Shown: positions 3,739 through 23,355 of the stretch, in pieces
How the letters are laid out: each line of letters begins with the position of its first letter
How positions within the stretch are numbered: position 1 is the stretch's first letter
Origin: a virus
DNA: 23,355 bases
Virus record (IMG/VR): IMGVR_UViG_3300031227_010065
Span: 1-23,355 of that record
Reading direction: 5' to 3' (one strand)
Program-made: the position numbers and the translations under genes
Notes under the pieces: generated by a model
Databases searched by the model: none
Seen by the model: the letters and a program-made list of their open reading frames with translations, nothing else
Told to the model about the DNA's origin: nothing

Positions 3739-5448
3739 CTACGGATCTGAGCCGGCCACACCAGGCTGCATCGTGACGGTCGCGAAATACTTACCGTCAA
3801 GCATCTGATGCGCGACCTCGCTCTGGAGGGATTGCTCGACATCCTGTGTGCCGGGGTCGATCCAGATCGGAGTCACGAACAGACCGAGATACGGCGCAAT
3901 GACGTAGCCCGTCTGCGGCCACTGCTTACCCTTGGCGCCGACCAGCAAGGTGTTTGTCTGGAGGCTGTCCCACCAGCCGACCTTGACCAGCCGCTCGCCA
4001 GTGCTCAGAGAACCGGCGATGTCGATTCCCTCGGCGACTCGCCCCTGGCCATCGCCCTTGTAGTCGCCGGCGGCCTGAGCCAGCCAAACGATGCGATCGA
4101 TCGAATCCGGGTCACCGATGATCCACACCGTGTCCGCGAACCTCGACTTGTAGATCAGGTTGCGGGCTTTCTTGATGTGGGTGATGATCTGCTTCTGCCA
4201 CTGCTCGCCGTCGTAGTTCCCGGTAGCGGGCGGCAGAGTGCCGTAGTTGACGTTGCCGGCGGTCGCGCCGCTGACCATCTCCGCGAGAATGTTGTAGTTC
4301 CATTCCCGCGCAACCTGGTCGGCGCACGCGGAGATCATCGTGCCGGTGCCGTCGATGCCGAAGTCGGAGTGCAGGTGCCGCATCACCTCGACCGACAGGT
4401 CGTAACCGAGCTTTTTGATGAGGCAGGTGACATTGGTCGAAGTCAAGCTGCCCTTGAGCCGCTTGATCTCTTCCTTCTCACCCGGGTCGTTGGCATACGA
4501 GCCAGTGAAGTTCGCGACGGCCGACATATCGGCGTCGTCCTCGTCGGTGATCTTCCAGTGGTAGACGCGGCCGGTCGACTGCTTCAACGGCTGAAGCGTT
4601 CCGAGTTGGGTCGCGATCAACTGCGGGAAGATGTCGACCATCAGCGGCATCACATACGGGATCGCCGCCGCGACGTCGCCGGTCGTGGTGGCGCCGGTGG
4701 GAATCGCCTGTCCCCTCGCGCCCTGCCGCAGCACGGACATCCGGTCGCGGCTGAACTGCTCGGCATCCTCGACTCTCTTCATCATGCCGTTGCGCATCAT
4801 CAGCCACGCATCGGCCAGTTCCGGCTTCTCCTTGACGAAGTTCTGGAGCATGATCCGCATGCACAGACGCGTGTCGGAGAAGTCGGGAAGAGCGCCGGGC
4901 ACCCACGAGCTATTCCCCTCGTGCAGTATTCCGCGTTCGGTCGCCGACTGGATCAATTCCTCGACGGCCGCTTCGTAACTCTGCGGGGCGTCCACCGAAG
5001 TACCGTCGTCCTTGTACTCCGGGGTATACATCCCCTTGCTCGCAAGGCGAGCGTGACTATCGAGGAACGGCTGTATCGACTGCCGCAGCGCCGGCATCAC
5101 CGCCTCGATCCCCTCGTCCGTAGCGCACATGTTCTGCAACATCGTCCGAGCGGAGTCACTGAACTGCTCGGGCAGTTCCTTGTCCGTTACCATCTGCGCG
5201 ATCCGTGCGCTCACAGCGGCGTTGCGCTTCTGAACCAGTTCACGCGACGCGTCTCTGTCGATGATCGCCTGCGCCTGCGCCGTTACTCCACGGGCCTGAT
5301 CGAGCACTGCCCGATCATCGTCCGTCAGTCCCGCGGGCGCCGCCACGGGCGCCGCCTGCGGCAATACCTGCGGTGGCGTCGCCGTTCCATCCGGGCCGCC
5401 GCCATCGACATCGGCGTTCTGCTTGTTTGTGACCTCATCGGGGTCCAT
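3739..5448 (-). CDS. nested in-frame scaffold-capsid product from an internal start
   Basis: Inside the protease-capsid frame, the ATG at 5448 (Met 378 of the long product) is preceded by AAGGAGA with 6-7 nt spacing, as good a ribosome site as any in the window. The product would be 569 residues: it begins MDPDEVTNKQ, has an acidic and Ala/Pro-rich ~180-residue N-terminal region, then the capsid fold. The site sits exactly where protease homology ends. This mirrors the nested lambda C/Nu3 arrangement and would allow many capsid copies per protease copy. Whether the N-terminal region is a scaffold that is later cleaved off is inferred. Confidence 0.6.
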   Translation of the reverse strand: MDPDEVTNKQNADVDGGGPDGTATPPQVLPQAAPVAAPAGLTDDDRAVLDQARGVTAQAQAIIDRDASRELVQKRNAAVSARIAQMVTDKELPEQFSDSARTMLQNMCATDEGIEAVMPALRQSIQPFLDSHARLASKGMYTPEYKDDGTSVDAPQSYEAAVEELIQSATERGILHEGNSSWVPGALPDFSDTRLCMRIMLQNFVKEKPELADAWLMMRNGMMKRVEDAEQFSRDRMSVLRQGARGQAIPTGATTTGDVAAAIPYVMPLMVDIFPQLIATQLGTLQPLKQSTGRVYHWKITDEDDADMSAVANFTGSYANDPGEKEEIKRLKGSLTSTNVTCLIKKLGYDLSVEVMRHLHSDFGIDGTGTMISACADQVAREWNYNILAEMVSGATAGNVNYGTLPPATGNYDGEQWQKQIITHIKKARNLIYKSRFADTVWIIGDPDSIDRIVWLAQAAGDYKGDGQGRVAEGIDIAGSLSTGERLVKVGWWDSLQTNTLLVGAKGKQWPQTGYVIAPYLGLFVTPIWIDPGTQDVEQSLQSEVAHQMLDGKYFATVTMQPGVAGSDP

Positions 5449-6579
5449 TGATGTCTCCTTTCGCGGCTCCGGATGTTTGTTGGCCTGGAGCCGGGCGTAT
5501 TCAACGGCGGAGCCTGGACTCGCACCGTTCAGAACAACATCGATAGAGATGAGGCGGAACCCATCCGCCTGCACAATATCGACTTTCTGTCCCTGGAACT
5601 CTCCCGGCTTCGTTGTGGCGATTACCAGCGTGCTCATGTCGAACCCGATACCGGCAATCAGCGTTGCGGCCAAGTCGTTGCCCTCTCGCGTCTTGGTCGT
5701 GACAGCTTCAAATGCGACTTGGTTGCCTCGCATTTCCAGCTTCGTGAACTTCTGGGATACTTCATGCGGATCAGGCGGACGGGGAAAGCCCTGTCCGTCG
5801 GCCTTGTGACCTGATGCGCCGATCACCCTGCCCATGGGAAGGCTGATTTGCGCCAGATCAACCTGTTGGCACCACAGTTCAGCGGGGTACACCTGTCCTT
5901 GCGTATTGACAACATCACCGACCGTGGCCACGCCGCCAAAGCGCACAGTCCCATCTTTCTGTGCTTTGCCTTGATCGAGTAGCCGTATCGGAGCACGGAC
6001 CTGCTGCATCAAAAAAGGCGGCTTTTCGCCGCCTTGTTCGATCACCGCCCCGACCGGGGTTTCTTGTAGTTCAATGTCTGGCGGCGTATGTTCCGCGTTC
6101 GCCAACCCGCCGATCGCCTGCTGAACGATCGTGATGATCTGCTTGATCTCGACCTCGCGGACATCGGAGAACGTGAACGCATCCCCATCGCGAGTCCAAT
6201 CGGCCTGATAGTAGCGAGATTCCCACTTGCCGGACTGGTTCCGGATCTCGCTTGAGATAACAACCGACTCCGGCATGGTGAATACGGTCCACTTGTATTC
6301 GCCCGGAATCGAGTCGTTCGCTTGAATCGCCCGATTCAGACGGCGGATCAACTTCTCATACGCATCGTCCGTGCTTTCGCCCGAGATCACCGCCCCTTGC
6401 AGAAGTGCCGACATGCTCTCTTCCAGGGCGGATTCGTCGATCTTGTCGTCCTGCGCCAGTTTTTCGAGCCCAACCATAGTCGTGCGGATAGGTTCGACCA
6501 GTTCGGACGGCAGTATCTCCCGTGTTTGCCCTAGAAACGAATCAAGCCCGGATATCCGGGCTTTGAGCAGGTCAATCAT
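3739..6579 (-). CDS. prohead protease fused to major capsid protein
   Basis: This is a single 946-residue frame. The chosen ATG follows AGGAGG by 5 nt; an in-frame GTG 36 nt upstream lacks such a site. Residues ~1-180 form an uncharacterised N-terminal region. Residues ~195-365 resemble phage prohead serine proteases: GRVIGASGHKADG with candidate catalytic His ~258, GIGFDMS with candidate Ser ~316, and VVLNGASPGSA. Residues ~380-480 are rich in Ala, Pro and Gln with a helical, scaffold- or delta-like look. The remainder (~560-946) resembles an HK97-fold capsid subunit: a long N-arm, VMPLMVDIFPQLIATQLG, many acidic and aromatic strands, and DTVWIIGDPDSIDRI. No frameshift is visible. An internal RBS and ATG at 5448 probably supplies most of the capsid protein. 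Protease and capsid are usually separate genes, so the fusion is notable. Confidence 0.8.
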   Translation of the reverse strand: MIDLLKARISGLDSFLGQTREILPSELVEPIRTTMVGLEKLAQDDKIDESALEESMSALLQGAVISGESTDDAYEKLIRRLNRAIQANDSIPGEYKWTVFTMPESVVISSEIRNQSGKWESRYYQADWTRDGDAFTFSDVREVEIKQIITIVQQAIGGLANAEHTPPDIELQETPVGAVIEQGGEKPPFLMQQVRAPIRLLDQGKAQKDGTVRFGGVATVGDVVNTQGQVYPAELWCQQVDLAQISLPMGRVIGASGHKADGQGFPRPPDPHEVSQKFTKLEMRGNQVAFEAVTTKTREGNDLAATLIAGIGFDMSTLVIATTKPGEFQGQKVDIVQADGFRLISIDVVLNGASPGSAVEYARLQANKHPEPRKETSMDPDEVTNKQNADVDGGGPDGTATPPQVLPQAAPVAAPAGLTDDDRAVLDQARGVTAQAQAIIDRDASRELVQKRNAAVSARIAQMVTDKELPEQFSDSARTMLQNMCATDEGIEAVMPALRQSIQPFLDSHARLASKGMYTPEYKDDGTSVDAPQSYEAAVEELIQSATERGILHEGNSSWVPGALPDFSDTRLCMRIMLQNFVKEKPELADAWLMMRNGMMKRVEDAEQFSRDRMSVLRQGARGQAIPTGATTTGDVAAAIPYVMPLMVDIFPQLIATQLGTLQPLKQSTGRVYHWKITDEDDADMSAVANFTGSYANDPGEKEEIKRLKGSLTSTNVTCLIKKLGYDLSVEVMRHLHSDFGIDGTGTMISACADQVAREWNYNILAEMVSGATAGNVNYGTLPPATGNYDGEQWQKQIITHIKKARNLIYKSRFADTVWIIGDPDSIDRIVWLAQAAGDYKGDGQGRVAEGIDIAGSLSTGERLVKVGWWDSLQTNTLLVGAKGKQWPQTGYVIAPYLGLFVTPIWIDPGTQDVEQSLQSEVAHQMLDGKYFATVTMQPGVAGSDP

Positions 6580-6595
6580 ATCGGCCTCCTGTCGA

Positions 6596-7036
6596 TCAGA
6601 GTGCAGCTCCTTCACCTGTCATCGCGCGCACTTCTTCTGCGGCCGCCATATCCGTTGCGACCTTGTTGACCGCCGCCACATGCGTGTCCGCCAGGTGCAG
6701 AACCAGACCTTCGGCCTGTTCGAATACCTCCTGGCAGAACGGGCATTGATATTGCTTCGTCGGTTGCGAAGAGTCGTATTGTACCGGTGCCGGTACGCGC
6801 CCTTCGAGCATGTCCAGTCCGGGAGTTTCGCTCGCAATTTCAAGCACGCCCGTTTGCACCAGCCGTTCGCCCAGTGTGCCCTTGGCGCAGTCAATCACGT
6901 CCGACGCGCCGGGCCGCAGCATCCCCCGCCCGACGCTTTGGGGAACGCGGGTTACGTTTTGAACCATCTTCAAGACCGGTTCGTGCTCGGGTTTTTCTTC
7001 CTTTTGCTTTCGTTTCTTGTCGGCTAGTCCCACCAT
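6596..7036 (-). CDS. module plus C2H2 zinc-finger small protein
   Basis: The protein has 146 residues, with ATG at 7036 after AGGAGGT. A basic leader (KKRKQKEEK) is followed at ~25-69 by the recurrent module (NVTRVPQSVGRGMLRPG, then L-x2-R-L and GVLEIA). At 96-119 there is a classical C2H2 finger: C98-x2-C101-x12-H114-x4-H119 with F105 and L111. It lies 16 nt upstream of the protease-capsid start and downstream of the portal, a position often held by minor head or accessory proteins. It may be a virion component or a DNA-binding factor. The finger predicts zinc binding but not its partner. It is a probable paralogue of the next upstream gene. Confidence 0.75.
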   Translation of the reverse strand: MVGLADKKRKQKEEKPEHEPVLKMVQNVTRVPQSVGRGMLRPGASDVIDCAKGTLGERLVQTGVLEIASETPGLDMLEGRVPAPVQYDSSQPTKQYQCPFCQEVFEQAEGLVLHLADTHVAAVNKVATDMAAAEEVRAMTGEGAAL

Positions 7037-15209: not shown

Positions 15210-15785
15210 TCACTGCATCGCCAGCATTGGCGTAGTCTCGGGTAGTTGTCCCACTTGATCTCCCCAGGCTTCCCAGCCGGCGACCCGGTGCCGCGCAAAC
15301 AGTTCGATCCGCGGCACATCGCCATACATCTTCTCGATTCGCTCCCGCACGACCGCCGGCTTCTCCGAGTGTTGCGATCGCGGATACATCACAAGCGACG
15401 GCACCATCTTGTTCTCGGGCGGCATCGATCCCTTGACCCCGAGCAGGCAGAGTTCGGCGTTGCTCGAAGTGTAGTAGCCAGGCCCGAATATCGGCAGTCC
15501 GTTCGGCCGCGTCTTCACCCAATGGAACGCAACGGTGCAGTAACGAAACCCCCACGCTTCGATCACGCGTATGCCGACATCCAGCCGCGGGCACGTCGTC
15601 CAGAGGAAAAGCGCACAGTTCTCGTCCGCGATCGACTGCACAAACTCTCCCATCCCGACGATCTCTTTATCGCGCATCAGCTTATAGTGCGCGCATGCCC
15701 CGCCGCCGAACCGAGTCCGTTTCCCGGACATCCGGCGGTTGTTATACCACCACGGCGGATCAGCGTAGATGATCTTGTGCTTCAT
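15210..15785 (-). CDS. MT-A70 family adenine methyltransferase
   Basis: This 191-residue enzyme has DPPW (9-12) inside IIYADPPWWYNN, the S-adenosylmethionine/adenine catalytic motif, then LFLWTTCPRLD, VIEAWGFRY, SSNAELCLLGVKG and HSEKPAVVRERIEKMYG followed by RIELFAR and GWEAWG. This is the full MT-A70 set seen in phage N6-adenine DNA methyltransferases. It would methylate adenine in phage DNA, probably protecting it from host restriction. ATG at 15785 overlaps the upstream gene by 26 nt. Substrate sequence and whether it acts on DNA or RNA are not visible. Confidence 0.9.
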   Translation of the reverse strand: MKHKIIYADPPWWYNNRRMSGKRTRFGGGACAHYKLMRDKEIVGMGEFVQSIADENCALFLWTTCPRLDVGIRVIEAWGFRYCTVAFHWVKTRPNGLPIFGPGYYTSSNAELCLLGVKGSMPPENKMVPSLVMYPRSQHSEKPAVVRERIEKMYGDVPRIELFARHRVAGWEAWGDQVGQLPETTPMLAMQ

Positions 15786-17916: not shown

Positions 17917-18464
17917 CAGTAGTTCCGCACTTCCCAGATAATCGTGTTGCGATGCGGAAACACACCTACATCGCGGTCGAACACGGTGAACTCGATCACC
18001 GATCCGTCGTATTCACTCAGTAACGCCCGGATGTCGTCGTAGCTGCACGGGTCGCAATAATGCCGCATGATCTCTACCGACACAATGCCGGCAACAGTCC
18101 TGCCGCCCCTGGCCAACGACCGTCTCATCACATCCTGCACTGTCGAGTAGTGCAGCTCTACGCCTATTTCAGACCACTGCACCTCCGCGTTGATTACGGG
18201 CTGTATGCCGATAGGCATCGTGACCACACTGATCTGCGATTTGGCGCAGCCATAGGTGTTGTAGTTCGCGGCAACCAAAGCCTTGTGATAAGACAGGTGG
18301 TATTCCCAAGGCGCGTTCAGTTGCAGTCCGAAACGTAGCGAGTACTCCGCATCCTCATGCAGCTCATGTAGCCACTCTTCGTAACTCACCCATGGGAAAT
18401 GGTTGCCGAACTTGTCGGCACGCAAAAGTTCATACATCTGGCTCTTGTTGCGCACGACGGCCAT
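17916..18464 (-). CDS. hypothetical protein
   Basis: This 182-residue protein starts at an ATG overlapping the methyltransferase stop (TAATG) after GGAGGTGGGGG. I do not recognise the family. Notable segments are FPWVSYEEWLHELHEDAEYS, a Tyr-rich HLSYHKALVAANYNTYG, MRHYCDPCSYDDIRALL and a C-terminal VIEFTVFDRDVGVFPHRNT followed by IIWEVRNY, suggesting an alpha/beta fold with a closing beta strand. The CDPC motif could bind metal with the nearby His. No signal peptide or membrane segment. Its coupling to the methyltransferase may mean a related role. Confidence 0.7.
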   Translation of the reverse strand: MAVVRNKSQMYELLRADKFGNHFPWVSYEEWLHELHEDAEYSLRFGLQLNAPWEYHLSYHKALVAANYNTYGCAKSQISVVTMPIGIQPVINAEVQWSEIGVELHYSTVQDVMRRSLARGGRTVAGIVSVEIMRHYCDPCSYDDIRALLSEYDGSVIEFTVFDRDVGVFPHRNTIIWEVRNY

Positions 18465-19858
18465 TACACCCCCACCTCCATTGGCAACTTCACCTGCGAA
18501 ACGGCCTCTTCCAGCCTCGCGATGCTCATATCCAGATAGTCCCGGTTGATGTCGACCCCGATATACCTGCGACCCTCGTCGATCGCCACGAGCATCGTTT
18601 GTCCGCTCCCGTGGAACGGATCGATCACCACGCACGATCGGATCTTGTCAGTCTCGCACTTGCACGTCCGCTTCCAGTCGACAGTCTCGACTTCCCGCAT
18701 CCCCTCGAGCACACGAGCTTTCACATCGCTGGGGTTCTGCACTTTCGCGCCCACATAGTCCTTACGCCCCGAACCGTGATATGAAGCCGTCTTCCCGCCC
18801 CCGCAAGCCTTGCCCCAGGCAATCACCTTTCCGCCTTTCTCTACAACCCGTTCCAGGGGCGACTCGCACTCGAAGCAGCATCCCATCCAACTCGTGCCCG
18901 CCCGGATCGCCCGCCTCGGCACTTCCCGCGGGAACGTCGCGAAGTGATCTATCCACTCGTTCGAATCGCACAATGGGCAGACCCGCACCTTTTCGCCGTC
19001 GATGATCCTCGTTGGGATCTTGTGATACGCGCGCCCGACAAACAGCTTCCGGCAGTGCCCACAGAACGCATACTGCTCATATCCCGGCTTCAGAACCCAG
19101 TAGTTCCGCATGTTCCGGCCGGTTTCCGCGAAGTCGCAGTTGCTCATCCCGTGCTGTTTGAGTTTGAGATCATGCGTGCCGTTACGATACGCCGATCTGT
19201 CCCGCTTGCCCCAGTCTTGCGCGGACTCCATCACCGCATAGCGGTCGTAGTAGTAGTCTTTCGACTGCGCCAACAGATAGATCTTCTCGACTGCGTTCGT
19301 TGGTCGATCCTCGACGGATTCACACATCGGCACGCGTTTGCACCAGCTTATCTCGCTCCGGACCCACCAGCCGTTTTCCTGAAGGGCAATCGCGACCCGC
19401 GCGGGGATCATGCACATGTCCTTCGGTTTCAATCCCTCGATCGGCATCCGGTTCGGCTGCATCGTCGGGCCGACGGCCGCCGTCTTATACTTCACCCGCT
19501 TCGAGCTCGGTTCGTTGACCCCACGAAATCCAGCCCAGCGCTCGCCCTGTTCGCCTCCGCCCGGGCAGTCCCCGACTTTTCCCGCGCCCGTTGCATAAGT
19601 CTCACCGAGGTTCAGCCAGAACGTGCCTTCGGGTCGCAGGACCCGTCGCAACTCACCGAACACTCCCACCAGATTGCCGACAAACTCATCCGGGGTCTTC
19701 TCCAAACCGAGTTGACCGTCGGTCGAATAATCTCTCAAGCCCCAGTAGGGTGGGGATGTCACCGCGCAGTGCGCACATGCGTCCGGCAGCGCCGAAAGCA
19801 CCTCCCGCGCATCTCCGTGATAGAGCGTGACCCCATGTCCCTCGTAGTAAGGCGTCAT
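18464..19858 (-). CDS. beta-class DNA methyltransferase (N6-A or N4-C) with zinc ribbon
   Basis: The protein has 464 residues. The ATG overlaps the upstream stop as ATGA and gives the family-typical MTPYYEGHGVTLYHGDAREV start. Motif IV TSPPYWG is at 34-40. Motif I lies near the C-terminus (DPFHGSGQT at 413-421, GVDIN at 434-438), the permuted beta-class order. Between them, C266-x2-C269 and C294-x2-C297 form a zinc ribbon, then HFATFPREVPRR, and more Cys at 327, 328, 331, 352, 399 and 401. This middle block is the likely target-recognition region. The product would methylate the exocyclic amino group of A or C. The SPPY form is seen in both N4-C and N6-A enzymes, so the base is undecided. A longer frame to 20071 exists but reads like a shadow. 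Confidence 0.92.
   Translation of the reverse strand: MTPYYEGHGVTLYHGDAREVLSALPDACAHCAVTSPPYWGLRDYSTDGQLGLEKTPDEFVGNLVGVFGELRRVLRPEGTFWLNLGETYATGAGKVGDCPGGGEQGERWAGFRGVNEPSSKRVKYKTAAVGPTMQPNRMPIEGLKPKDMCMIPARVAIALQENGWWVRSEISWCKRVPMCESVEDRPTNAVEKIYLLAQSKDYYYDRYAVMESAQDWGKRDRSAYRNGTHDLKLKQHGMSNCDFAETGRNMRNYWVLKPGYEQYAFCGHCRKLFVGRAYHKIPTRIIDGEKVRVCPLCDSNEWIDHFATFPREVPRRAIRAGTSWMGCCFECESPLERVVEKGGKVIAWGKACGGGKTASYHGSGRKDYVGAKVQNPSDVKARVLEGMREVETVDWKRTCKCETDKIRSCVVIDPFHGSGQTMLVAIDEGRRYIGVDINRDYLDMSIARLEEAVSQVKLPMEVGV
18468..18481 (-). repeat. copy 2 of 14-nt junction/RBS repeat
   Basis: Exact copy of ATGGAGGTGGGGGT; here it also encodes the last residues of the beta-class methyltransferase (MEVG) and precedes the ATG at 18464. 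Confidence 0.7.
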
Positions 19859-20190
19859 TCGGCGCACTCGTGAATCCGTATATACGCGCATCCGTCTGGC
19901 ACCTTGAACTGAGTTGCGATTAGTCCCACCTTGAGCAGTTGTTCGGGCATCAGAACCTTGCCGGCGATATCCACAACACGCTTGGCTGAGGCATTGCGGC
20001 CTTTGTTCTTCACCGCATACTGCCAATCCTTGTCGGTCAGCGTCTTGGCGTGCTCGAGCGCATCGGGGCACAGCTCACTCCAATTGGCCTCGATCTCCTC
20101 GATCAAGGCCGCTACGGTCCCACATCTCGTGACAGCCTCTATATATGGCCTCACAATGTCCGTCTGGTGTCCGATCTTACTGGGCTTCAT
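19855..20190 (-). CDS. hypothetical protein behind a structured leader
   Basis: This 111-residue protein starts at ATG 20190 with GAGG 5 nt upstream; an in-frame GTG at 20196 overlaps that site and is rejected. It is predominantly helical (PYIEAVTRCGTVAALIEEIE, HAKTLTDKDWQYAVKNKG) and ends with two likely beta strands (LIATQFKVPDGCAYIRIHE). No family is recognised. It is translationally coupled to the methyltransferase (ATGA). Its ribosome site can be paired in a short stem, and a longer nested structure lies just upstream, so its expression may be controlled at the RNA level. Confidence 0.7.
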   Translation of the reverse strand: MKPSKIGHQTDIVRPYIEAVTRCGTVAALIEEIEANWSELCPDALEHAKTLTDKDWQYAVKNKGRNASAKRVVDIAGKVLMPEQLLKVGLIATQFKVPDGCAYIRIHECAE

Positions 20191-21288: not shown

Positions 21289-21519
21289 CTATGTCACATT
21301 CGACCCGCCAGTCGGCGGATTCTGCCCCTCGCTAGTGCCGTTGCCCCGCGGCTGATATCCGTACCGAGGCTCCATCGCGGCCGTTCCGCCAGTCGGCGGA
21401 TTATCTCTGTCTACAGTGCCAGTCGCCTCATAGCCGCCCCCTGTCGCGCGACACTTCGACCCCACCAGCACAACCAGCACAATGCCAACAACCACTCCCA
21501 CCACGAACCAATCAATCAT
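21289..21519 (-). CDS. small single-pass membrane protein with two NPPTGG repeats
   Basis: This 76-residue protein uses ATG 21519 (a TTG 3 nt upstream is possible) after GGCGGGG. Residues ~4-20 (WFVVGVVVGIVLVVLVG) are a transmembrane helix; the rest is a polar, Gly/Pro/Thr-rich, likely disordered tail carrying NPPTGG twice. No cleavable signal or lipobox is convincing. It overlaps the end of the C5 methyltransferase by 8 nt. It could be a small envelope or lysis-associated protein, but nothing in the sequence decides this. Confidence 0.6.
   Translation of the reverse strand: MIDWFVVGVVVGIVLVVLVGSKCRATGGGYEATGTVDRDNPPTGGTAAMEPRYGYQPRGNGTSEGQNPPTGGSNVT
21305..21321 (-). repeat. palindromic direct repeat, copy 1
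   Basis: CCGCCAGTCGGCGGATT occurs here and again at 21386-21402. Each copy encodes the NPPTGG motif and is itself a CCGCC/GGCGG hairpin, so the pair is a repeat of a palindrome inside a coding region. Confidence 0.7.
21386..21402 (-). repeat. palindromic direct repeat, copy 2
   Basis: Identical 17-nt copy of the element at 21305-21321, 64 nt away edge to edge, within the small membrane-protein gene. Confidence 0.7.
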
Positions 21520-22609
21520 CAATACCTATCCCCGCCCTCTCCGCAAGAGCGACAAATGCTTTCGCCGCCACGATTGGAACGACTGCGTTCCCGCCGGCCC
21601 GGAGTCGATCGGTGCGAGAGAAGTCCACCCCGGCGGGAACCCCATCAGCCACATCACAAATCGCGGGTTCAAGCGTCGGGTCGAGTTCGAGCACTCCTCC
21701 CCAGGCATCGGTGTCCGTGGGGCCTGGCGGGAAAGGTGGGAGTTCGTCGGCGCATTGCCGTTCCCGTCCTTCGAGTCCCTGCCCAGAGGCGTTGCCCAAG
21801 TCTTCGCCGTCGCCTGCAAGTCCTCTCCGCCGCTCCCGCGTGTCGCGAGCGACACGCGGCCCTCTGGTCCGCCCGTCGGTGTCTTCGGCGTCGGCCAGAA
21901 CCGAGTCTGCGATTCGAGGCCCACTTGCCGCTTGCCCACCGATGTCGCACCCTTGCGTTCCACATCCTCCGCAGACATTGACCGCCCGCCGTTGGGAGTA
22001 TTCGGAGTCATCCACATCCGGGATACACCCGTCAACGTCCGCTGTGTCGTTCCGTCCCTCTGCTTCTGGTAGTCCCCGACCTCGTGCGCCCGCACTGTAG
22101 GCCAGGATGAAGAGCCGTTCCCGTTTGTGTGGCGCGCCACATTCGGCAGCCGAAACGAGATCCCATTCCGCATCGAACCCCGCTTCGGCCAGGTCGCCAA
22201 GAACGTGTCCAACCCCGCCATTGGCAAGACCGGGCACGTTTTCCAAGAAGACGATTCCGGGTTCCACCTCGCGAATGATACGTGCAATCTCCGGCCAGAC
22301 CCACCGCTCATCTTCGGTTCCCCGCCGCTCTCCGGCAACGGACCATGGCTGACACGGAAACCCCGCAGTGATGATATCCACGACTCCACTCCATCTTCGG
22401 CCATCGAATGTCGTGAGATCGTCCCATACAGGAGCCGAATCCAGGGCCGCGTCCGCCATCCTCGCCACGAGCATGCACGCGGCTGAGACTTCCCGTTCGA
22501 CGTAGCACACAGTTCGATACCGAGCGCCGAGAGCGAGCCTAAGTCCCAGTTCGAGCCCGCCAATTCCGGCACAAAGAGAAAGGCCATTCAAATGAGTCTC
22601 CCCGTCCAT
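21512..22609 (-). CDS. C5-cytosine DNA methyltransferase (Dcm-type)
   Basis: The protein has up to 365 residues. Motif I LSLCAGIGGLELGL (10-23), motif IV GFPCQPWSVAG (83-93, catalytic C86), motif VI FLENVPG (121-127), motif VIII APHKRERLFILA (159-170) and motif X RLRAGGNAVVP (335-345) are all present, so it should be active. The section 171-310 (target-recognition and linker) is Gly/Asp/Arg-rich with recurring LADA-like words and looks low in complexity; it overlaps a second open frame. The start is ATG 22609 or, more in line with relatives, TTG 22591 beginning LNGLSLCAGIGG, with GGGGAG 6 nt upstream. It would protect phage DNA from host endonucleases. Recognition sequence unknown. Confidence 0.92.
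   Translation of the reverse strand: MDGETHLNGLSLCAGIGGLELGLRLALGARYRTVCYVEREVSAACMLVARMADAALDSAPVWDDLTTFDGRRWSGVVDIITAGFPCQPWSVAGERRGTEDERWVWPEIARIIREVEPGIVFLENVPGLANGGVGHVLGDLAEAGFDAEWDLVSAAECGAPHKRERLFILAYSAGARGRGLPEAEGRNDTADVDGCIPDVDDSEYSQRRAVNVCGGCGTQGCDIGGQAASGPRIADSVLADAEDTDGRTRGPRVARDTRERRRGLAGDGEDLGNASGQGLEGRERQCADELPPFPPGPTDTDAWGGVLELDPTLEPAICDVADGVPAGVDFSRTDRLRAGGNAVVPIVAAKAFVALAERAGIGIDD
21526..22587 (-). CDS. possible overlapping ORF in the methyltransferase gene (WPTP-type protein)
   Basis: A complete 353-codon frame lies within the methyltransferase, shifted relative to it. Its ATG directly follows the TGA of the upstream gene. The protein shows ESSSWKTC (~111-118), FLATWPKRGSMRNGISF (~129-145), four W-x-T-P-like repeats near 162, 192, 231 and 264 (SWPT, WMTP, WPTP, WATP) and LNPRFVMWLMGFPPGWT (306-322). 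From memory, the series SSSWRT, TWPRSGM..NG, WPTP..D and LNP.FVEWLMGFP.GWT defines a widespread stand-alone phage protein group near C5 methyltransferases. It may therefore be translated, or be a by-product of that gene's composition. No function can be stated. Confidence 0.4.
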   Translation of the reverse strand: MAFLFVPELAGSNWDLGSLSALGIELCATSNGKSQPRACSWRGWRTRPWIRLLYGTISRHSMAEDGVESWISSLRGFRVSHGPLPESGGEPKMSGGSGRRLHVSFARWNPESSSWKTCPVLPMAGLDTFLATWPKRGSMRNGISFRLPNVARHTNGNGSSSWPTVRAHEVGDYQKQRDGTTQRTLTGVSRMWMTPNTPNGGRSMSAEDVERKGATSVGKRQVGLESQTRFWPTPKTPTGGPEGRVSLATRGSGGEDLQATAKTWATPLGRDSKDGNGNAPTNSHLSRQAPRTPMPGEECSNSTRRLNPRFVMWLMGFPPGWTSLAPIDSGPAGTQSFQSWRRKHLSLLRRGRG

Positions 22610-22968
22610 GGGTAGAGTGTCTGCCCCACCAACACTACCTTCCTCGGCGTATCCATCAGCGGCTTGAGCATGGAATAGAACAGGACCGCAGGGTTGAGAC
22701 TGGAATACTTGTACATCTCATAGGACACCACGTGTGTCCGTTTCCCCTGCATCCAGATCTCCAGGCAATACCACTCCGGCTTCCGAAACACCCCATTCCT
22801 CAATGCCGGAGGCCCGGACACAATGGGGATATCCTGGATCGGAATCCGCTTGCAGGAGGCGGACAACACCAATGCGTCCAGAGCATCCTTGCGCGTCGGA
22901 TAGACCGGCGATTCAGGGCCACAACTCATGTTTTCGGCAATATTAGCAACCGTAAGTTCGTTCTTCAT
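22588..22968 (-). CDS. hypothetical protein
   Basis: The protein has 126 residues; ATG at 22968 lies 4 nt after the clamp stop, so it is coupled to it. No family recognised. The sequence has a helical N-terminus (VANIAENMSCG, KDALDALVLSASCKRIPIQD) and a beta-rich C-terminal half (YCLEIWMQGKRTHVVSYEMY, then KVVLVGQTLYPWTG). The stop TGA is embedded between the two candidate starts of the downstream methyltransferase locus (TTGAATG). Adjacent placement to the sliding clamp hints at replication or DNA metabolism, but this is only positional. Confidence 0.7.
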   Translation of the reverse strand: MKNELTVANIAENMSCGPESPVYPTRKDALDALVLSASCKRIPIQDIPIVSGPPALRNGVFRKPEWYCLEIWMQGKRTHVVSYEMYKYSSLNPAVLFYSMLKPLMDTPRKVVLVGQTLYPWTGRLI

Positions 22969-22972
22969 TACA

Positions 22973-23355
22973 TCACTCCGCTATCTGCATCGGCATCACG
23001 ACCGCCATGTAGTCCCGGTTCTCGGGCGCGGTCACAAACGCCTGGTCCTGCTTCCCTTTCAGCGAGATCCGGATCTGCTTGCTGCCCAGAAGCGGTTGCA
23101 TGGCATCCCGCAAATACCTATAGCTGAACTTGGTGCGCATGCCCTCGCCGATGCCGCCGGCTTCCAGCAGATCGACCTCGCACTCGCTTTCGCCGAACAC
23201 TGGTGAGCGCGTAGTCAGTATCAGCTTTTGGCCCTTTGCGACAAACTCGACACCATCGCTGTTGCCGCGGGCGATCACAGACAGACCCATCAAGGCACCT
23301 GTGAGTTCGCAGGGATCGACAATCCAGTGTCCGGGCGTCTGCATCACGCCCTCGA
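22973..23355 (-). CDS. dnaN: DNA polymerase sliding clamp (DnaN-like), C-terminal domain, 5' end cut by window
   Basis: The frame remains open at the right edge (Glu-Gly before the first internal Met pair), so only the last ~127 residues are seen. They align by eye with domain III of bacterial beta clamps: DPCELTGALMGLSVIARGNS, VEFVAKGQKLILTT, an acidic ESECEVDL strand, FSYRYLRDAMQPLLGSK, IRISLKG, then the terminal YMAVVMPMQI, matching the canonical Y-VVMPMR-type end. It would form a ring on DNA that tethers the replicative polymerase. A phage-encoded clamp suggests a substantial replication module beyond the window. Confidence 0.85.
   Translation of the reverse strand, partial: EGVMQTPGHWIVDPCELTGALMGLSVIARGNSDGVEFVAKGQKLILTTRSPVFGESECEVDLLEAGGIGEGMRTKFSYRYLRDAMQPLLGSKQIRISLKGKQDQAFVTAPENRDYMAVVMPMQIAE

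Follow-up and report, generated by a model that had tools for sequence, protein, structure and literature searches.

The locus at positions 21512-22609 (minus strand) of a virus fragment raises the question of whether DNA that reads as a cytosine methyltransferase in one frame also encodes a protein in a second frame and, if so, what that protein is. The fragment, IMGVR_UViG_3300031227_010065, is 23,355 bases long and is here called the window; its G+C content at the locus is 62%. The first frame, alpha, is a C5-cytosine methyltransferase ORF on the minus strand, running from a TTG start at 22591 to position 21512 (359 codons), or from an alternative ATG at 22609 (21512-22609, 365 codons). The second frame, beta, lies in the +1 frame of alpha on the same strand and extends over 21526-22587 with 353 codons, so that the uninterrupted 353-codon ORF reported in the initial annotation is confirmed and the overlap is almost complete. 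As also stated there, both starts sit in a single heptamer, TTGAATG (22591-22585), which contains the alpha TTG, the beta ATG and the TGA of the upstream gene, and which is preceded by the candidate Shine-Dalgarno sequence GGGGAG (22603-22598). By sequence inspection, this element lies 6 nt before the TTG and 10 nt before the ATG, and it could serve both starts.

The alpha frame carries, in the order already described for it, motif I (LSLCAGIGG, 22556-22582), motif IV with the catalytic cysteine (GFPCQPWS, 22340-22363), motif VI (LENVP, 22232-22246), motif VIII (HKRERLFI, 22106-22129) and motif X (DRLRAGGNAVVP, 21575-21610), all on the minus strand. Alpha matches the phage family PHROG 363, named DNA methyltransferase (E 5e-61), and all 20 positions that are invariant in the alpha alignment are kept in the window. 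The match to PF00145 (E 9e-36) covers only residues 8-175, that is, up to motif VIII. Specifically, the similarity of alpha to PF00145, to NCBIfam dcm and to M.HhaI ends at this motif (residue about 171-175), and the sequence that follows bears no resemblance to these families until motif X. Motif IX is absent from the alpha frame of the window and sits in the +1 frame instead.

The corresponding features of beta begin with the N-terminus MAFLFVP and continue, on the same strand, with W-x-T-P words at 22003-22014, 21886-21897 and 21787-21798. Three of the four such words claimed earlier are exact (WMTP, WPTP and WATP), whereas the fourth reads WPTV and lies within 22093-22110, directly before the region between motifs VIII and IX (21622-22092) in which beta is the conserved frame and alpha only stays open. 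One and the same DNA does read LADA in alpha (21881-21901) and WPTP in beta (21886-21897). Motif IX of beta (LNPRFVMWLMGFPPGWT) occupies 21622-21672, and its DNA, read in the alpha frame, gives VADGVPAGVD (21623-21652).

A second open frame in a G+C-rich gene may be trivial, and the openness of beta was measured over 209 loci, which came from phages, bacterial genomes and viral contigs. The frame of beta relative to the overlapping alpha is the same in 208 loci; the remaining one, L174, overlaps in the other frame. When the synonymous codons of alpha were permuted and the stops in the other frames counted, 243 stops were expected between motifs VIII and IX in the +1 frame of 205 loci, and none was observed. 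The third frame, with 1243 stops against 1208 expected, stays near expectation, which indicates that the shuffle test is calibrated. The depletion is equally complete (0 against 38 expected) in the 39 loci fetched by alpha alone, and it does not occur in 28 ordinary Dcm genes (325 stops against 334 expected); the control was a bacterial sample taken by class and consisting almost entirely of such genes. Along the gene, +1 stops are near expectation until about 30 codons before motif IV, where they thin out, and they cease abruptly about 10 codons upstream of this motif (0 against 69.5 in that bin), with only two in total from there to motif VIII. The stops are thus gone well before the W-x-T-P region, which fits an independent initiation of beta. 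The openness extends to loci with a G+C content as low as 47%.

The distribution of substitutions, analysed in 50 independent pairs aligned at the DNA level, adds that the constrained protein changes along the gene. The differences at alpha codon positions 1/2/3 amount to 298/158/700 before motif IV and 440/223/886 between motifs IV and VIII, then to 626/191/173 between motifs VIII and IX, and again to 115/57/259 after motif IX. Pairwise sign counts from 45 pairs give the same picture, the pairs with more changes at position 1 and those with more at position 3 being 0:44 before motif IV, 1:44 from IV to VIII, 43:0 from VIII to IX and 1:37 after IX. Since the first position of an alpha codon is the third of a beta codon, the conserved protein is alpha until motif VIII, beta from VIII to IX, and alpha once more after IX. 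Accordingly, changes between VIII and IX that are silent in beta and not in alpha are found at 2.6 times expectation, and those silent in alpha and not in beta at 0.56 times. The codon-position-specific comparison of both frames, proposed at the outset as a check, therefore places the constraint on the second frame between these two motifs, and neither frequent stops nor a lack of constraint is found there among the homologues. Judging from stop counts and substitutions together, beta is a real coding frame under purifying selection.

Over the same region alpha behaves differently. With beta-synonymous shuffling, 694 alpha stops were expected between VIII and IX and 46 were observed, confined to 10 of 194 loci; alpha is kept open here because it must be read through to motif X. 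By these criteria, alpha between VIII and IX changes like an unconstrained frame and is, as far as can be judged, maintained as a linker to motif X. The repeated words illustrate the point: in 380 cases of W/L-P-T-P the codons follow TGG CCN ACN CCN, with all four bases found at each N. The free third bases of beta let alpha read D, Y, H or N, and the LADA-type words of alpha, mostly [V/L/M]-A-[D/Y/H/N]-[A/T/P/S], are what such third bases give. In the window itself, where constraint is judged against a single fairly close relative (L051), identity from IV to VIII is 51% in alpha and 33% in beta, and from VIII to IX it is 39% in alpha and 58% in beta.

What beta contributes is suggested by its C-terminal end and by relatives in which the two frames are arranged otherwise. 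Beta has no match in Pfam or NCBIfam, nor in the PDB by sequence search; it does match the phage family PHROG 1008, also named DNA methyltransferase (E 2e-28). The end of beta reads LNPxFVEWLMGFPxGWT, and hhalign comparisons started from two alignments both rank canonical motif IX (R-x-LTxRExARLQGFP) first for this stretch, with weak E values of 0.09-0.14. A PDB search with the IX-X profile returned 4onq, an entry named DNA methyltransferase, as the best methyltransferase match (E 0.23, suggestive only), and an AlphaFold model of the C-terminal part of beta alone, built with 61 homologues, was poor (pLDDT 61, pTM 0.28). The relatives are more informative. Alpha terminates directly behind motif VIII in loci L121, L142, L163 and L166, and near motif IX in L063 and L019; at each of these six loci only the beta frame spans the W-x-T-P words, motif IX and motif X. 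The same layout, with alpha ending early and beta continuing through IX and X, is found in Streptomyces and Embleya plasmids and in Arthrobacter phage Eesa. Mycobacteriophage Fancypants, for its part, has LPTP words, motif IX and motif X in a single frame with motifs I-VIII (gp73), and this in-frame module is 54% identical over 52 amino acids to a +1-frame module of Gordonia phage CheeseTouch. The alpha-truncated relatives and the single-frame gene of Fancypants indicate that beta corresponds to the variable region and motif IX of a methyltransferase; taken with its position and the weak hhalign match, its end is, by homology, motif IX.

These comparisons also bear on the idea that overprinting had created a new phage gene family here. 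Second frames without an overlapping alpha do exist among the relatives, and beta is coding and constrained; a separate new function, however, does not stand, beta being a homologue of the C-terminal half that unsplit relatives carry in frame, and the frame is not restricted to phages, as it also occurs in bacterial genomes.

Further variants of the layout were noted. Alpha of L059, L133 and L138 has a stop directly behind motif VIII, preceded by AYRHSN, AYRRSD or AYRHSD, yet far downstream its frame still contains motif X; this could reflect a third piece, read-through or decay. In L047 (2215-2720, approximate) a LAGLIDADG-type homing endonuclease-like sequence (YAAGLIDGEGCISI...) lies within the alpha gene, where it is read in the frame of beta, and both frames are still open. 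Salmonella phage SEN5 (L255, 618-1607) shows WPTP words and LNPELALWLMGLP in the +1 frame of a Dcm gene of a very different type, so that the overlap is not restricted to one Dcm lineage. In Mycobacterium phage Ochi17 (L253, 833-1592) a frame change interrupts alpha downstream of motif VI; two methyltransferase pieces are annotated (gp73/gp74), and motif IX can still be read in another frame.

As for the origin of the second polypeptide, the TTG of the window aligns with the ATG start of alpha in L051, the nearest relative. In a subfamily of 36 loci that includes L051, beta begins with M-x-W-[LIV]-[YHI]-[VIL]-P near the alpha start, the window having MAFLFVP with F replacing W and Y. In these 36 loci beta contains no stop between the N-terminal word and motif IV, the third bases of the word are free, and its distance to alpha motif I varies; the free third bases and the variable distance imply that the word is conserved as beta protein. 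As in the window, both starts fall within NTGAATG at 14 of these 36 loci, the background of this sequence being 0.0002 per base. In most relatives beta is short and open only from just before motif IV, and their internal start region is modestly enriched in ATG (71 against 51 expected) and in ATG preceded by a Shine-Dalgarno sequence (26 against 12).

Four other explanations must be weighed against a two-subunit enzyme. An untranslated frame that stays open owing to high G+C, the codon usage and a conserved alpha would suit the 62% G+C of the locus, and the conservation of alpha alone does yield similar +1 peptides in motifs I-VIII; the shuffle test with its third-frame and canonical Dcm controls, the loci of 47% G+C and the flip in substitution position nevertheless leave it very improbable. 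The repeats might instead act on the level of DNA, for example as recombination sites for the shuffling of recognition modules, as the recurrence of the W-x-T-P words and the shuffled look of the modules between phages would allow. Their variation falls at the third codon positions of beta, as expected for a protein word, which makes such a role scarcely credible. That beta is a separate new protein, overprinted on alpha and with a function unrelated to methylation, agrees with its being coding and conserved, yet it is a poor prospect, given that the beta-like frame overlaps an alpha, always in the one relative frame, at 208 of the 209 loci, that beta contains motif IX and sometimes X, and that the methyltransferase frame of Fancypants includes homologous modules. 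The G+C artefact, the DNA-level repeat and the unrelated new gene were rejected on the shuffle tests, the substitution pattern, the third-base variation and the in-frame module homology.

Programmed ribosomal frameshifting, by which one polypeptide would leave the alpha frame after motif VIII, take its target region and motif IX from the beta frame and return to alpha for motif X, would account for a constraint that changes frame at VIII and again after IX, and Fancypants does carry the target region, IX and X in one frame. Such a mechanism would, however, demand two opposite shifts; a shift at VIII would not need beta to be open from upstream of motif IV, where it is open, nor does it sit well with an alpha kept open through VIII-IX or with the conserved beta N-terminus, with its own ATG, in the subfamily of the window. 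We regard it as improbable.

The reading that we prefer, with a probability of roughly 0.86, is that the overlapping frames of the locus encode the two subunits of a C5-cytosine DNA methyltransferase, with alpha as the catalytic polypeptide and beta supplying the target region and motif IX. Alpha would provide motifs I-VIII, which form the AdoMet-binding and catalytic domain, together with motif X. Beta, initiated from the same ribosome site at a start four bases further on, would provide motif IX and the target-recognition region, which consists of W-x-T-P modules. Both polypeptides are presumably made and would assemble into one active enzyme, which would modify the phage DNA, probably to guard it against host restriction. 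From their position and variability, the W-x-T-P modules may read the target, possibly several per enzyme. Several recognition units per enzyme are a feature of the multispecific methyltransferases of Bacillus phages. A broader proposal, which we put forward tentatively and at slightly less than even odds, is that overlapping alpha/beta cytosine methyltransferases form a large class, present in phages and bacteria and so far mostly unrecognised, whose target recognition would reside entirely in the second frame as interchangeable W-x-T-P modules of a multispecific enzyme. The modules would have moved between frames, being in frame in some actinophages and in +1 in most others, and the twin NTGAATG starts would set the subunit ratio.

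The overlapping arrangement turns out to be common in phages and to occur also in bacteria, usually with one frame annotated. Phage records (OP131590.1, OR075997.1, KP296795.1) are inconsistent in this respect, some giving only beta, called once methyltransferase and once hypothetical, and some only alpha; several Paenibacillus phage records give both. As mostly one frame is annotated, and either may be called hypothetical, the target-recognition half is missing from most records, and predictions of specificity from alpha alone would be wrong. The locus is also a very long same-strand overlap, with about two hundred homologues behind it, in which constraint switches frame twice within one gene, and, as its relatives include unsplit, overlapping and separated forms, the step from a single-chain enzyme to one of two overlapping chains can be tested on them.

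The fragment contains three DNA methyltransferase genes, the further two being of the MT-A70 and N6/N4 types (15210-15785 and 18464-20071), together with terminase, portal and head genes. A 958-codon ORF (3739-6615), with a head maturation protease in its N-terminal part and a major head protein in its C-terminal part, is by its sequence a predicted fused protease-capsid gene. A sliding clamp gene, represented by its C-terminal domain (22973-23353), continues past the end of the window, and the small gene between it and the methyltransferase (22588-22968) has no family match.

The principle of such an overlap is already known, from one enzyme. M.EcoHK31I, reportedly described by Lee, Kam and Shaw in 1995, has its beta polypeptide coded within alpha in another reading frame. 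In this E. coli enzyme, which recognises YGGCCR, the larger subunit carries motifs I-VIII and X and the smaller one motif IX, with the target domain predicted on alpha (PMC3404938). As described, the likeness to the window is close: here, too, alpha has I-VIII and X, motif IX is on a second predicted polypeptide, and this is coded in another frame within alpha. Beta of the window differs in starting at the alpha start and in being about as long as alpha, and its family in having the amino-acid constraint between VIII and IX on beta, not on alpha, and in carrying the W-x-T-P words on beta. The predicted location of the M.EcoHK31I target domain is the reverse of this constraint pattern and counts against the two-subunit reading with target recognition on beta.

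In the searchable literature, with most subscription papers outside reach, such overlaps are mentioned only for M.EcoHK31I and M.AquI; nothing was found there on how widely the arrangement occurs across unrelated phages and bacteria, on a constraint that switches frame, on twin starts with full-length overlap or on a target region carried by beta. PHROG 363 and PHROG 1008 match alpha and beta, respectively, and the library output is silent on their being two frames of one gene. Paenibacillus larvae phage Shelly has an internal frame recorded in a Dcm gene of 47% G+C (gp55/gp56, 'g55 internal gene'), an arrangement comparable to that of the window, but there it is called hypothetical, is given no function and is a short beta from just upstream of motif IV. 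Ordinary Dcm genes, unlike the window family, have no conserved +1 frame. Alpha of the window aligns to M.HhaI and M.HaeIII up to motif VIII; these, in contrast, are single-chain enzymes, with all motifs and the target domain in one frame. M.AquI (CYCGRG), finally, is split after motif VIII, its alpha having I-VIII and its beta the distal variable region and IX-X (PMC3404938), which is the layout of L121, L142, L163, L166 and the Streptomyces and Embleya loci. The window departs from M.AquI in its almost complete overlap and in keeping motif X in the alpha frame, whereas motif X on the second polypeptide, the M.AquI trait, is present in L121, L142, L163 and L166.
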